43,045 nucleotides of DNA from an uncultured Alteromonas sp. (GTDB lineage Bacteria; Pseudomonadota; Gammaproteobacteria; Enterobacterales; Alteromonadaceae): the NCBI RefSeq assembly GCF_913058315.1, contig NZ_CAJXQY010000028.1:1-43045 (forward strand), read 5' to 3'. The position numbers were made by a program, and so were the translations under genes. The notes under the pieces were generated by a model. That model saw only the letters and a list, made by a program, of their open reading frames with translations. It was not told the origin of the DNA and searched no databases. Positions 1,820 to 5,678 of this stretch are shown in pieces; the first letter of the stretch is position 1, and each line of letters opens with the position of its first letter.

Positions 1820-1895
<76 letters not shown>

Positions 1896-2044
1896 AATTT
1901 CTTTTCATGATGTATATCGTGGAATAGGCCGAAGTAAGTTGAGAATTATTAGCTTAGTAATTCGTGAGTTACACTCCAGCTTCTTCAGGACTTGAAAATC
2001 AGTAAGGCTAAGGTCGCTCATTTTGCAGAGCAAAATTCGCCTTA

Positions 2045-2086
2045 CTGAAAATCCCGAAAGCAGTGCTTTCGGAAACAGATTTTCAG
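2045..2086 (+). other. Two-part hairpin including tRNA-Glu base 1 (copy 1)
   Basis: An outer 9-bp stem, CTGAAAATC (2045-2053) with GATTTTCAG (2078-2086), encloses an 8-bp stem CCGAAAGC/GCTTTCGG with a three-base loop. The last base of the outer stem is G1 of the mature tRNA, so the RNase P cleavage point lies in the helix. A second hairpin just upstream (CAGTAAGGC 2000-2008 with GCCTTACTG 2039-2047) shares three bases with it, so the two compete. Pairing was found by eye. Confidence 0.75.
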
Positions 2087-2161
2087 TCCCCTTCGTCTAG
2101 AGGCCTAGGACACCGCCCTTTCACGGCGGTAACAGGGGTTCGAATCCCCTAGGGGACGCCA
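2086..2161 (+). tRNA. tRNA-Glu (anticodon TTC), copy 1
   Basis: A 76-base tRNA with encoded CCA. Acceptor GTCCCCT/AGGGGAC, anticodon stem CCGCC/GGCGG and loop CTTTCAC give anticodon TTC. Together with its two identical siblings it supplies the substrate of GltX, encoded just upstream. Confidence 0.97.
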
Positions 2162-2315
2162 TCTATATCGCGTCACAGTCGATTAATACTGTGGATAGGC
2201 CGAAGTAAGTTGAGAATTATTAGTTTGGTAATTCGTGAGTTACACTCCAGCTTCTTCAGGACTTGAAAATCAGTAAGGCTAAGGTCGCTCATTTTGCAGA
2301 GCAAAATTCGCCTTA

Positions 2316-2357
2316 CTGAAAATCCCGAAAGCAGTGCTTTCGGAAACAGATTTTCAG
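2316..2357 (+). other. Two-part hairpin including tRNA-Glu base 1 (copy 2)
   Basis: The same structure as at 2045-2086, displaced by 271 bp and identical in sequence. The outer stem again ends on the first base of the tRNA (2357). Confidence 0.72.
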
Positions 2358-2432
2358 TCCCCTTCGTCTAGAGGCCTAGGACACCGCCCTTTCACGGCGG
2401 TAACAGGGGTTCGAATCCCCTAGGGGACGCCA
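2357..2432 (+). tRNA. tRNA-Glu (anticodon TTC), copy 2
   Basis: Identical over 76 bases to the copy at 2086-2161, including the encoded CCA. It is part of the second 271-bp repeat. Confidence 0.97.
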
Positions 2433-2557
2433 TCTATATCGTGTCACAGTCGATTAATACTGTGGATAGGCCGGAAGCTGAAATGCTTTCAGGACCGAAA
2501 TATTCTGTGAGGAATGATTATAAGGTCGCTCGGTTACGCAGAGCTTACCTCGCCTTA

Positions 2558-2597
2558 CAGAAATTTAGTGAAGCAACGCTTCACTAACAAATTTCTG
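2558..2597 (+). other. Sequence-divergent version of the tRNA-Glu hairpin (copy 3)
   Basis: The third spacer has different sequence but the same shape. Outer stem CAGAAATTT (2558-2566) pairs with AAATTTCTG (2589-2597). Inner stem TTAGTGAAGC (2565-2574, sharing two bases with the outer stem) pairs with GCTTCACTAA (2578-2587), with a three-base loop. The outer stem again closes on tRNA base 1. Upstream, AAGGTCGCTC, GCAGAGC and TCGCCTTAC are shared with the other spacers. Different bases with retained pairing is compensatory change. Confidence 0.72.
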
Positions 2598-2672
2598 TCC
2601 CCTTCGTCTAGAGGCCTAGGACACCGCCCTTTCACGGCGGTAACAGGGGTTCGAATCCCCTAGGGGACGCCA
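2597..2672 (+). tRNA. tRNA-Glu (anticodon TTC), copy 3
   Basis: Identical to the other two tRNA-Glu genes. It is the last tRNA of the operon and is followed within five bases by the A-rich start of a terminator. Confidence 0.97.
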
Positions 2673-2676
2673 TATT

Positions 2677-2706
2677 AAAAAAACCAGCCAATCGGCTGGT
2701 TTTTTT
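2677..2706 (+). terminator. Rho-independent terminator of the tRNA operon (1)
   Basis: The 8-bp stem AACCAGCC/GGCTGGTT (2682-2689 with 2694-2701) has a four-base loop, a preceding A run and a following T run. It works on paper in both directions. Confidence 0.92.
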
Positions 2707-2896
2707 ATGCGTGCTCTTTGGGATGAGAAGTCCTTATTCAACCTGCTAACTCATAAGTACTTCCGGAGTTTTTTCATTTGGGGTTCGACTGCCATGTCTG
2801 GAACATGGCAGAACGCGCTTTAGCGCGGCCCGAAGGGCAGAGTGCAGGACAGCACTCTGTAATCCCCTAGGGCTAGTCCGCTCGGAACGCCATATT

Positions 2897-2925
2897 AAAA
2901 AACCAGCCAATCGGCTGGTTTTTTT
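2897..2925 (+). terminator. Rho-independent terminator, second copy
   Basis: The same stem-loop as at 2677-2706 (stem 2901-2908 with 2913-2920), repeated in the tandem unit. Confidence 0.88.
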
Positions 2926-3115
2926 ATGCGTGCTCTTCGGGATGAGAAGTCCTTATTCAACCTGCTAACTCATAAGTACTTCCGGAGTTTTTTCATTTGG
3001 GGTTCGACTGCCATGTCTGGAACATGGCAGAACGCGCTTTAGCGCGGCCCGAAGGGCAGAGTGCAGGACAGCACTCTGTAATCCCCTAGGGCTAGTCCGC
3101 TCGGAACGCCATATT

Positions 3116-3143
3116 AAAAAACCAGCCAATCGGCTGGTTTTTT
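3116..3143 (+). terminator. Rho-independent terminator, third copy
   Basis: The same stem-loop again (3120-3127 with 3132-3139). With the two earlier copies this makes three terminators in series between the tRNAs and the next gene. Confidence 0.88.
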
Positions 3144-3267
3144 CATGCCTGCTCTTCGGGATGAGAAGCCCTTACTCATTCTGTTCAGCTTTATATAACA
3201 GGCTAAGACAGTTATGCGTGTTCTGGTTACTGTGCAATTGGCCGTCACTTCATCCACTCTGCAATCA

Positions 3268-3309: not shown

Positions 3310-4209
3310 ATGTATCCTATCGGCACACCAGGTAAGCCCTGGGAAGAAGAAGAAAAAAAACAATGGCTCGCGGCGCAATCAGTTAAGCGTAGTTACGCCG
3401 ATGAAGTATTAAGTCAATTAGACGCCATGCCGGATTATTTTTCTGTTATTCAGTACGGTGCCTTGCCCTATGATGAGTCACGCTACCCACTTTATGCATT
3501 GTTACCCAGGCAGCCAATAGCAGATGCCCCCTGGGTACTGGTAACTGGCGGTGTACACGGTTATGAAACCAGTGGCGTGCAGGGCGCTTTGTTATTTGCG
3601 CGGGAATACAGTCAGGCGTATACCGGTAAAATCAATCTGATAGTGGTTCCCTGCGTAAGCCCTTGGGGTTATGAAACTATTAACCGTTGGGATCCGCTGG
3701 CTATCGATCCGAACCGCTCTTTTTATCCCGACTCGCCAGCGCCAGAGTCAAAACTACTCATGGACTTTATTGGCGCAATGCCGCAGGAATTTTTACTGCA
3801 CATCGATCTTCATGAAACCACCGATACGGATAACAGCGAGTTTCGCCCGGCATTAGCGGCCCGTGATGCTATTGAGCAAAAAGCCTGGGAAATCCCCGAC
3901 GGCTTTTATCTGGTGGCCGATGCCAAAGCGCCTCATCTGCCACTGCAGCAAGCGATTATCAACGAGGTGAAAAAAGTTACCCATATTGCTCCAACGGATG
4001 AAAACGGCCTGATTATCGGCGCGGAGGTGCCTTCTGAAGGCGTAATCTGCTATGACAAGAAAAAGCTCTTCTTATGCGGCGGATTTAATAATGCTACCTA
4101 TTGTTCTACCACAGAGGTGTATCCGGACAGCCCGTCAGCTACTCCGGAAATTTGTAATCGTGCTCAGGTTGCGGCTGTAGAGGGCGCTTTACAGCATTTA
4201 CTGAAGTAA
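3310..4209 (+). CDS. M14-family zinc carboxypeptidase-like protein
   Basis: A 299-residue protein without a signal peptide, related to the M14 carboxypeptidase / succinylglutamate desuccinylase (AstE, aspartoacylase) superfamily. Visible zinc ligands are the HxxE pair in GVHGYET (H83, E86) and the distal His in DLHET (H168). DPNRSF (133-138) matches the substrate-binding Asn-Arg pair. The substrate is not predictable; hydrolysis of a C-terminal peptide or N-acyl amino acid bond is the family chemistry. AAGGTGA seven bases before the ATG is a good ribosome binding site. The gene stands alone: terminators precede it, and a new promoter and operator follow. Confidence 0.8.
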   Translation: MYPIGTPGKPWEEEEKKQWLAAQSVKRSYADEVLSQLDAMPDYFSVIQYGALPYDESRYPLYALLPRQPIADAPWVLVTGGVHGYETSGVQGALLFAREYSQAYTGKINLIVVPCVSPWGYETINRWDPLAIDPNRSFYPDSPAPESKLLMDFIGAMPQEFLLHIDLHETTDTDNSEFRPALAARDAIEQKAWEIPDGFYLVADAKAPHLPLQQAIINEVKKVTHIAPTDENGLIIGAEVPSEGVICYDKKKLFLCGGFNNATYCSTTEVYPDSPSATPEICNRAQVAAVEGALQHLLK

Positions 4210-4229: not shown

Positions 4230-4269
4230 CGATGTCTGGATGTTTGGATTTCTAGACGTCTAAATGTAT
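4230..4269 (+). promoter_or_regulatory. Array of five MetJ-type octamers (met boxes)
   Basis: Five contiguous 8-mers start at 4230, 4238, 4246, 4254 and 4262: CGATGTCT, GGATGTTT, GGATTTCT, AGACGTCT, AAATGTAT. The fourth is the exact met-box consensus; the others match it at 6, 5, 5 and 5 of 8 positions. MetJ, the S-adenosylmethionine-dependent methionine repressor, binds two or more adjacent octamers cooperatively. The array covers the -35 and reaches into the -10 of the promoter at 4244-4272, the right place for repression of the gene at 4305. Confidence 0.72.
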
Positions 4270-4272
4270 ACT
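4244..4272 (+). promoter_or_regulatory. Promoter of the small gene pair
   Basis: TTGGAT (4244-4249) and TATACT (4267-4272) are separated by 17 bp. The promoter is embedded in the met-box array and lies 32 bp before the ATG at 4305. Its position excludes the upstream in-frame ATG at 4218 as the start. Confidence 0.65.
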
Positions 4273-4304
4273 CCTCGCTATGCTTAACGCGTTGCGGGGA
4301 TATC

Positions 4305-4484
4305 ATGGTTTACGTTGCATTGTTATATGAAGGGGTAGGGCAAAGACTGGTCAGATATGAAGCCAGTAATGAAGCCGATTTTTTTGCTAAACTCGATGCC
4401 CGGTTTGGCTGCTATGTTTGTCTGTGGTTTACCGAGGAACTGATCGCGAATAATGAAAAAGTTCACCCCCAGAGTCCCTGTTGA
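4305..4484 (+). CDS. Small protein of unknown function, possible MetJ target
   Basis: A 59-residue product that I do not recognise. It begins MVYVALLYEGVGQRLVRYEA and contains a short aromatic/cysteine stretch (GCYVCLWF). The ATG at 4305 is chosen because GGGGA lies four bases upstream and because promoter and operator end just before it; an in-frame ATG at 4218 would lie upstream of the promoter. The 3' end overlaps the next gene by 32 bp in another frame, suggesting translational coupling. The five-octamer MetJ-like operator implies a link with methionine or S-adenosylmethionine supply. Function remains open. Confidence 0.62.
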   Translation: MVYVALLYEGVGQRLVRYEASNEADFFAKLDARFGCYVCLWFTEELIANNEKVHPQSPC

Positions 4485-4674
4485 ACAGGCAATTGCTACA
4501 TCGCCCTGCATTGGTAACTGCTGTCTGGATGATGAGGACATTTGTTTGGGCTGTCAGCGCCATATTAATGAAATCACTGGTTGGCACAGTGCCGATGCCA
4601 CAGAGCGTCGCGCCATTTTAAATCGGTGTGAAAAACGCTTTGCTTTACGTTCAGGGCAGAAGTACCAATTCTGA
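4453..4674 (+). CDS. DUF1289 family protein (YdhL-like)
   Basis: A 73-residue cysteine-rich protein. The pattern SPCIGNCCLDDEDICLGCQR followed by HINEITGW is the hallmark of DUF1289, with four to five Cys that could bind metal or an iron-sulfur cluster; no biochemical role is established to my knowledge. It overlaps the preceding small gene by 32 bp. A GAGGAA lies rather far (about 13 bases) before the ATG, so translation may depend on the upstream gene. No better in-frame start exists before the Cys motif. It probably shares the MetJ-type promoter. DusC, encoded next, has its own candidate promoter. Confidence 0.82.
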   Translation: MKKFTPRVPVEQAIATSPCIGNCCLDDEDICLGCQRHINEITGWHSADATERRAILNRCEKRFALRSGQKYQF

Positions 4675-4733: not shown

Positions 4734-5678
4734 ATGCGAGTTTTGTTGGCGCCGATGGAAGGCGTTGTTGATCATTTAATGCGCGACATGCTTACCCGGG
4801 TAGGCGGTTTTGATCTGTGCGTAACAGAATTCGTTCGTATCGTTGACCAAAAACTTCCCCACAAAACCTTTTACCGTCTGTGCCCTGAATTGCACGAGGG
4901 GGGGAAAACCCCCAGTGGCGTTCCCGTTCGCGTACAGTTATTAGGGCAGCACCCTCAGTGGCTGGCAGAAAATGCCTTAACCGCTGTTGAGTTGGGTTCT
5001 CCCGGCGTCGATTTAAACTTTGGTTGTCCGGCTAAAACGGTGAATAAAAGTAAAGGCGGCGCAGTGTTACTGCAATATACTGAGTTGCTGCATGATATCG
5101 TTAAAACTGTGCGAGAGGCAGTGCCCGCCCATTTGCCCGTAACGGCAAAAATTCGTCTCGGTTTTGAGGATAAATCGCTGGCTATCGACAATGCGGTGGC
5201 CATTGATGAAGCCGGTGCATCTGAGTTAGTTGTTCATGCCCGCACCAAAACCGAAGGCTACCGGCCACCGGCCTACTGGGACTGGATTAAAAAAATTCGC
5301 GCCAATACCCGTTTACCGGTGATTGCTAATGGTGAAATCTGGTCTTATGACGATGCCAAACGCTGCCAGGAAATGTCGGGCTGCGATGATGTAATGATTG
5401 GCCGCGGTGCTCTTGCTATGCCTAATCTGGCCCGTCACATTCGTGATAACGAGCCGCCGATGAGCTGGCCGGAACTGGCGCAACTGCTGATAGATTATTC
5501 CGGTTATGAGATATACGGCGATAAAGGCCGCTACTATCCAAACCGACTGAAACAATGGTGTGGCTACCTGAAGCGCCAATACCCCCAGGCGGAAGTCCTG
5601 TTTGATAATATCCGCCGGTTACAAAAGGCCGATGAAATTGTTGCGGTGCTACAACAATCGGCTGCCACTGCAAAATAG
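4734..5678 (+). CDS. dusC: tRNA-dihydrouridine(16) synthase DusC
   Basis: An FMN- and NADPH-dependent enzyme reducing a uridine (U16 in the DusC subgroup) in the D loop of tRNA. The 314-residue sequence follows E. coli DusC closely by eye: LAPMEGVVDHLMRDMLT at the N terminus, CVTEFVRIVDQKLP, VRVQLLGQHPQWLAENA, and the catalytic-Cys segment NFGCPAKTVN near residue 100. The FMN phosphate region IANGEIW...GCDDVMIGRGAL is intact. Subgroup assignment rests on these matches and on length (E. coli DusC 315). No Shine-Dalgarno is seen, and the leader would be short. Confidence 0.92.
   Translation: MRVLLAPMEGVVDHLMRDMLTRVGGFDLCVTEFVRIVDQKLPHKTFYRLCPELHEGGKTPSGVPVRVQLLGQHPQWLAENALTAVELGSPGVDLNFGCPAKTVNKSKGGAVLLQYTELLHDIVKTVREAVPAHLPVTAKIRLGFEDKSLAIDNAVAIDEAGASELVVHARTKTEGYRPPAYWDWIKKIRANTRLPVIANGEIWSYDDAKRCQEMSGCDDVMIGRGALAMPNLARHIRDNEPPMSWPELAQLLIDYSGYEIYGDKGRYYPNRLKQWCGYLKRQYPQAEVLFDNIRRLQKADEIVAVLQQSAATAK

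Follow-up and report, generated by a model that had tools for sequence, protein, structure and literature searches.

What does a row of predicted MetJ operator boxes control when the first gene downstream encodes a 59-residue protein of no placeable family? MetJ is a textbook repressor, and most of the targets known for it serve to synthesise, take up or recycle methionine. The question is raised by a locus in a 43,045-nucleotide stretch of DNA from an uncultured Alteromonas (hereafter the window, meaning the whole stretch that was analysed). From the sequence and its conservation among relatives, we consider it very probable that the row of MetJ boxes would repress the small gene until S-adenosylmethionine becomes scarce, with a likely additional lock against read-through transcription.

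A row of met boxes over a promoter

The predicted operator occupies positions 4230..4269 of the forward strand and consists of five gapless octamers, in order CGATGTCT, GGATGTTT, GGATTTCT, AGACGTCT and AAATGTAT, which match AGACGTCT at 6, 5, 5, 8 and 5 of 8 positions. The array overlies promoter-like sequence on the same strand, with a −35 box TTGGAT (4244..4249) separated by 17 bases from a −10 box TATACT (4267..4272). A Shine–Dalgarno-like GGGG (SD; 4296..4299) stands 5 bases upstream of the start codon of the small gene (4305..4484, forward strand), an open reading frame of 59 residues. The original prediction had claimed five tandem octamers, one exact and the others at 5–6 of 8, over a TTGGAT-17-TATACT promoter, with a 59-residue reading frame of no placeable family first downstream; reading the locus bore out all three points, and no family was found for the protein.

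A single box carries little weight at this scale. One match to AGACGTCT occurs in the window, and at least one match occurred in 26 of 100 shuffles; the double-box 16-mer with at most 3 mismatches gave 13 forward matches genome-wide against 13 for the reversed control. Both are at chance level and were rejected as evidence, and it is the tandem array, as opposed to the single box, that is the significant object. The double-box matches of the genome include the metA, metJ/metF, metK and serA operators (gene names from reading the translations), and a MetJ matrix was built from 13 boxes of these operators, all of the same genome, with the candidate array excluded. Scored in this way, the array is the best of the window whether 2, 3, 4 or 5 adjacent boxes are taken together. 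The five-box array reaches 36.05 bits, a score equalled at 0 of 7.84 million Markov-simulated positions, and at none of the four sizes did any simulated position, out of about 7.9 million, match or exceed the score of the array. The matrix comparison proposed with the original prediction thus places the array far above random DNA. Elsewhere in the genome, a met-box pair between aspartokinase-like and AraC-like genes (L007, G000:C5:27238-27261; names by reading) may be a further MetJ site.

The repressor itself, whose presence the original prediction needed, is encoded in the window's genome (G000), where PF01340 is matched at E 1.4e-56; the protein aligns over 100 residues (E 9.1e-50) with the E. 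coli met repressor of PDB entry 1cma. The search covered part of the genus genomes and matched PF01340 in 35 of 40 genomes, counting G000 itself. One genus member without a PF01340 match (G017, locus L036; 180 contigs) carries both the small gene and the array, and reflects either an assembly gap or a real loss of MetJ.

Of the 59 genus genomes, 55 were found to carry the small gene, 54 by search and one more (G022) by reading of the locus and a profile, and the array precedes it in all 55. The nearest loci that bear a name, five at 90–95% protein identity, are from Alteromonas oceani, A. alba and bacteria labelled only as Alteromonadaceae or Gammaproteobacteria, and on this basis the genus is taken as Alteromonas. 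At 54 loci the best 3-box score has a median of 27.2 and lies between 17.8 and 29.9, whereas no control stretch exceeds 6.1 (210 stretches, each of 160 bases, drawn from 30 of those loci); the array of the 55th locus (L117, in G022) scores 27.5. The arrays comprise three to six gapless boxes, and that of the close relative A. oceani (L018) has a sixth box that is an exact 8-base expansion of the array. The 55 loci include many close relatives and therefore do not amount to 55 independent events. Between close relatives, too few codons had changed for the comparison to be informative.

An inverted repeat over the ribosome-binding site

Between promoter and start codon, an inverted repeat (4272..4300, forward strand) is predicted to fold into a hairpin, with a 5′ arm that begins at the −10 box and a 3′ arm that contains the ribosome-binding region. 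The hairpin of the window has a predicted energy of −15.9 kcal/mol (z −3.4), and the mean z across loci is −4.6 relative to single-letter shuffles. A predicted structure of at least 7 pairs with the SD bases in the 3′ arm is present at 54 of 54 loci, with an unbroken helix of at least 7 pairs in 52; the leader of L028 folds otherwise than the rest. When leaders that share a predicted shape were compared, both sides had changed, with pairing kept, in 9 of 276 pairs. RNAalifold on a MAFFT alignment of the leaders returned no consensus pairs, and an Rfam search returned nothing. A covariance model of the hairpin gave 47 matches and was not used for pair counts, because 12 or more of these were antisense or elsewhere.

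The usual distance from a −10 box to the transcription start would place the outer 5′ arm outside the native mRNA and inside RNA that arrives from the upstream gene. That gene (3310..4209, forward strand) is co-directional and a possible source of read-through; it encodes an M14/AstE-like peptidase, with a Pfam AstE_AspA_cat match over the cut-off (E 4.5e-07) and a Peptidase_M14 match below its own. In RNA read through from it, the inverted repeat would hide the ribosome-binding site; a transcript from the gene's own promoter, in contrast, should have its 5′ end within the 5′ arm, so that the site is less tightly paired. The predicted unpaired fraction of the SD in the window is 0.00 in read-through RNA and 0.34 with a start at +7. 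Mean predicted accessibility over the loci is 0.04 in read-through RNA, compared with 0.37 for a start at +7 and 0.29 for random arms, and in read-through RNA the SD is unpaired at less than 0.3 at 53 of 54 loci. At 50 of the 54, no more than 3 of 30 random arms closed the SD as tightly as the natural arm did (the exceptions being L028, L046, L047 and L057). A gain in accessibility of at least 0.3 with the start at +7 is predicted at only 33 of 54 loci, and only 8 reach 0.5. The SD of the upstream gene is also rather closed, with a mean of 0.14 over 17 loci.

These predictions make it likely that the inverted repeat would serve as a second lock on the small gene, directed against read-through RNA. 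That it instead acts within the gene's own mRNA, as a 5′ stability hairpin or in translational control, is a real possibility, though we lean away from it: the predicted structure of at least 7 pairs with the SD in its 3′ arm, present at all 54 loci, would suit such a role, as would a mean accessibility of just 0.37 even with the start at +7, but a native mRNA that starts at the usual distance from the −10 box would lack the outer 5′ arm. Guards against read-through are familiar from the fold-back of the IS10 transposase message and from the early and late messages of T4 gene e, in which a repeat hides the ribosome site in transcripts from outside and the gene's own transcript starts within the arm. 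The locus would share with them an inverted repeat that covers the ribosome site in RNA from outside and a transcript of its own that begins inside the arm; it would differ in that the gene is chromosomal and under a predicted metabolite-gated repressor. The portion of PMC8450116 that was available gives no support for the IS10 comparison.

Predicted operator and small gene in two genera

An alignment of the 54 loci was anchored on the last GACGTC before the start codon, so that those six bases are fixed by construction. At most places, conservation reaches 0.93 to 1.0 of the 54 loci for the bases flanking GACGTC, for the −35 TTG and for the box bases that precede the −35; the flank from −100 to −33 averages 0.23 bits per position in the same alignment. 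The promoter boxes keep fixed offsets 17 bases apart, with TTG at 54 of 54 loci and TATANT at 51 (TATGAT at 2 and TATTAT at 1).

Distant homologues were also found outside Alteromonas. A profile search of 394 genomes of the order matched 12, namely 7 in the genus, 3 of a second genus, labelled g21, and 2 that were rejected; the g21 genome G315 did not match this profile. A wider profile, which already contained three of the five g21 proteins, was run against 295 genomes of the family and recovered five g21 genomes and G574, with rows at E 9.8e-4 and weaker left out of the counts. Judging from protein names, g21 is probably Glaciecola. Three further candidates do not count as separate cases. 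L086 and L087, the two matches rejected in the order, were dismissed on their reading frames; L086 has no boxes, and L087, whose boxes were not scored, is antisense to a long reading frame read as malate synthase. L094 (G574, under another genus label) has gene and array and was not taken as an independent case because L043 encodes the identical protein.

The g21 small genes lie in other neighbourhoods than those of Alteromonas. A met-box array precedes the small gene in 5 of 5 g21 genomes, at another distance from the start codon, with 2-box scores of 17.3 to 21.3; the next best score elsewhere in a locus is at most 8.4, and the weakest of these arrays would be expected about 0.0001 times per 400 bases. 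MetJ is present in all five genomes. The conservation that the original prediction called for thus extends from 55 of 55 homologues in the genus to 5 of 5 in the second. At four of the g21 loci (L083, L084, L104 and L107) a divergent gene for an S46-like peptidase is found, and at three of these secG and tpiA as well (names by reading); the boxes lie between the small gene and the peptidase gene, which might share their control. The fifth locus (L085, genome G427) has different neighbours.

One could read the conserved block as mainly a strong promoter, or as bound by a different regulator whose 8-base repeat is similar, since the −35 and −10 boxes belong to it. We find this very improbable: bases of the met-box pattern are conserved ahead of the −35 as well as between the two promoter boxes, where a sigma-70 promoter does not need them, the matrix that recognises the array was built from the genome's own met operators, and the g21 boxes sit at another distance from the start codon.

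In the window, the small gene is overlapped by a gene for a DUF1289 protein (4453..4674, forward strand; PF06945, E 1.4e-18), followed by a dusC-like tRNA-dihydrouridine synthase gene (4734..5678, forward strand; PF01207, E 2.3e-75), hereafter dusC. Both may be co-transcribed with the small gene in this genome. Further upstream, at 1820-3183 of the window, lie a tRNA-Ala gene and three nearly identical tRNA-Glu genes in 271-base direct repeats, followed by exact 219-base repeats with a terminator-like stem. The statement that DUF1289 follows the small gene holds here and, by motif, at 44 of 54 loci, but the partner is optional, being absent from 8 (2 were not judged, and a stricter motif found 32) and not seen beside the small gene at the g21 loci read. 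DUF1289 is thus a common but dispensable partner, and what is conserved is the operator together with the small gene.

In three genomes of the genus (G012, G015 and G072) the M14-like gene and dusC are still in place but the small gene and the boxes are both missing, the best 3-box score anywhere in the locus being 0.5, 0.5 and 3.0, respectively. Another (G060, 87% complete) gave only a 39%-identical synthase match at the search, and gene presence could not be scored there. Loss of the small gene was also compared with that of MetE: TIGR01371 has no match in the three gene-less genomes, but as it has none in three gene-bearing ones either (G006, G057 and G066), MetE absence was rejected as a correlate. 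In most of the genus the MetE-like match is of half length only.

Since the boxes are gone together with the small gene in 3 of 3 cases and are present at the differently placed g21 genes, the predicted regulation follows the small gene and not DUF1289 or dusC, which were rejected as the conserved target. It is accordingly most improbable that the operator serves its neighbours (DUF1289, dusC or the divergent g21 peptidase) with the small frame as a passenger, as the frequent DUF1289 partner and the peptidase across the boxes in 4 of 5 g21 loci might suggest, given that the array is kept at 8 of 54 loci without DUF1289, that three genomes keep M14-like gene and dusC without boxes, and that no divergent gene is seen beside the boxes of L085.

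The small protein and the MetJ regulon

From the array and its setting, we infer MetJ binding and repression at the small-gene promoter. MetJ loaded with S-adenosylmethionine would bind the row of boxes cooperatively and, once bound, would block RNA polymerase. Because MetJ boxes are conserved over the promoter, the 59-residue protein is predicted to be made only in S-adenosylmethionine shortage.

The function of the protein is approached through its predicted fold, ββαβ, a simple and common arrangement, and structure matches were found at that level only. Pfam gave no match for the window protein at E 1; single members of the protein set A1 matched 11 families, none of them Gp2- or epsilon-like. 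Foldseek found no match in the PDB at E 0.001; among viral models, its matches at E 0.01 were confined to phage proteins that are themselves uncharacterised. Tentatively, and with somewhat less than even confidence, we suggest that the protein might be an adaptor or inhibitor that binds a partner protein in S-adenosylmethionine shortage, and not an enzyme. A more speculative extension, which we think unlikely in its full form, would give the MetJ regulon a small-protein effector, neither enzyme nor transporter, under a double lock of S-adenosylmethionine-gated operator and inverted repeat; the released ββαβ protein would bind and retune a key machine, possibly RNA polymerase, as T7 Gp2 and the RNA polymerase epsilon subunit (YkzG) do. 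Unlike a member of those families, the small protein has no sequence-family match to such RNA polymerase binders.

The locus shares the hallmarks of the MetJ regulon of gammaproteobacteria as the available parts of two studies describe it (PMC3228920, PMC4239095), namely tandem gapless 8-base boxes near AGACGTCT, placed over a promoter in a MetJ-bearing genome. Enzymes, transporters and regulators make up the targets named there, along with a few unknown proteins of larger size. The present target differs from these in that no protein of about 60 residues is named in those parts, although the supplementary tables could hold one. Alteromonas macleodii was among the species of the 2011 survey (PMC3228920), whose selection criterion, in the part available, was a target role in methionine metabolism. 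A literature search at the level of titles found none on a MetJ-controlled small protein. Judged from operator and gene together, we would place the target in the MetJ regulon of Alteromonas and a related genus, as a small-protein member that is new and uncharacterised, and the methionine response probably includes this protein as a part so far overlooked. With one operator, one 59-residue protein, a clear expression prediction and gene-less species for comparison, the locus offers a cheap entry point. A tiny, tightly conserved target of no known family suggests that a regulatory step may be missing from the present picture of how these marine bacteria respond to low S-adenosylmethionine.
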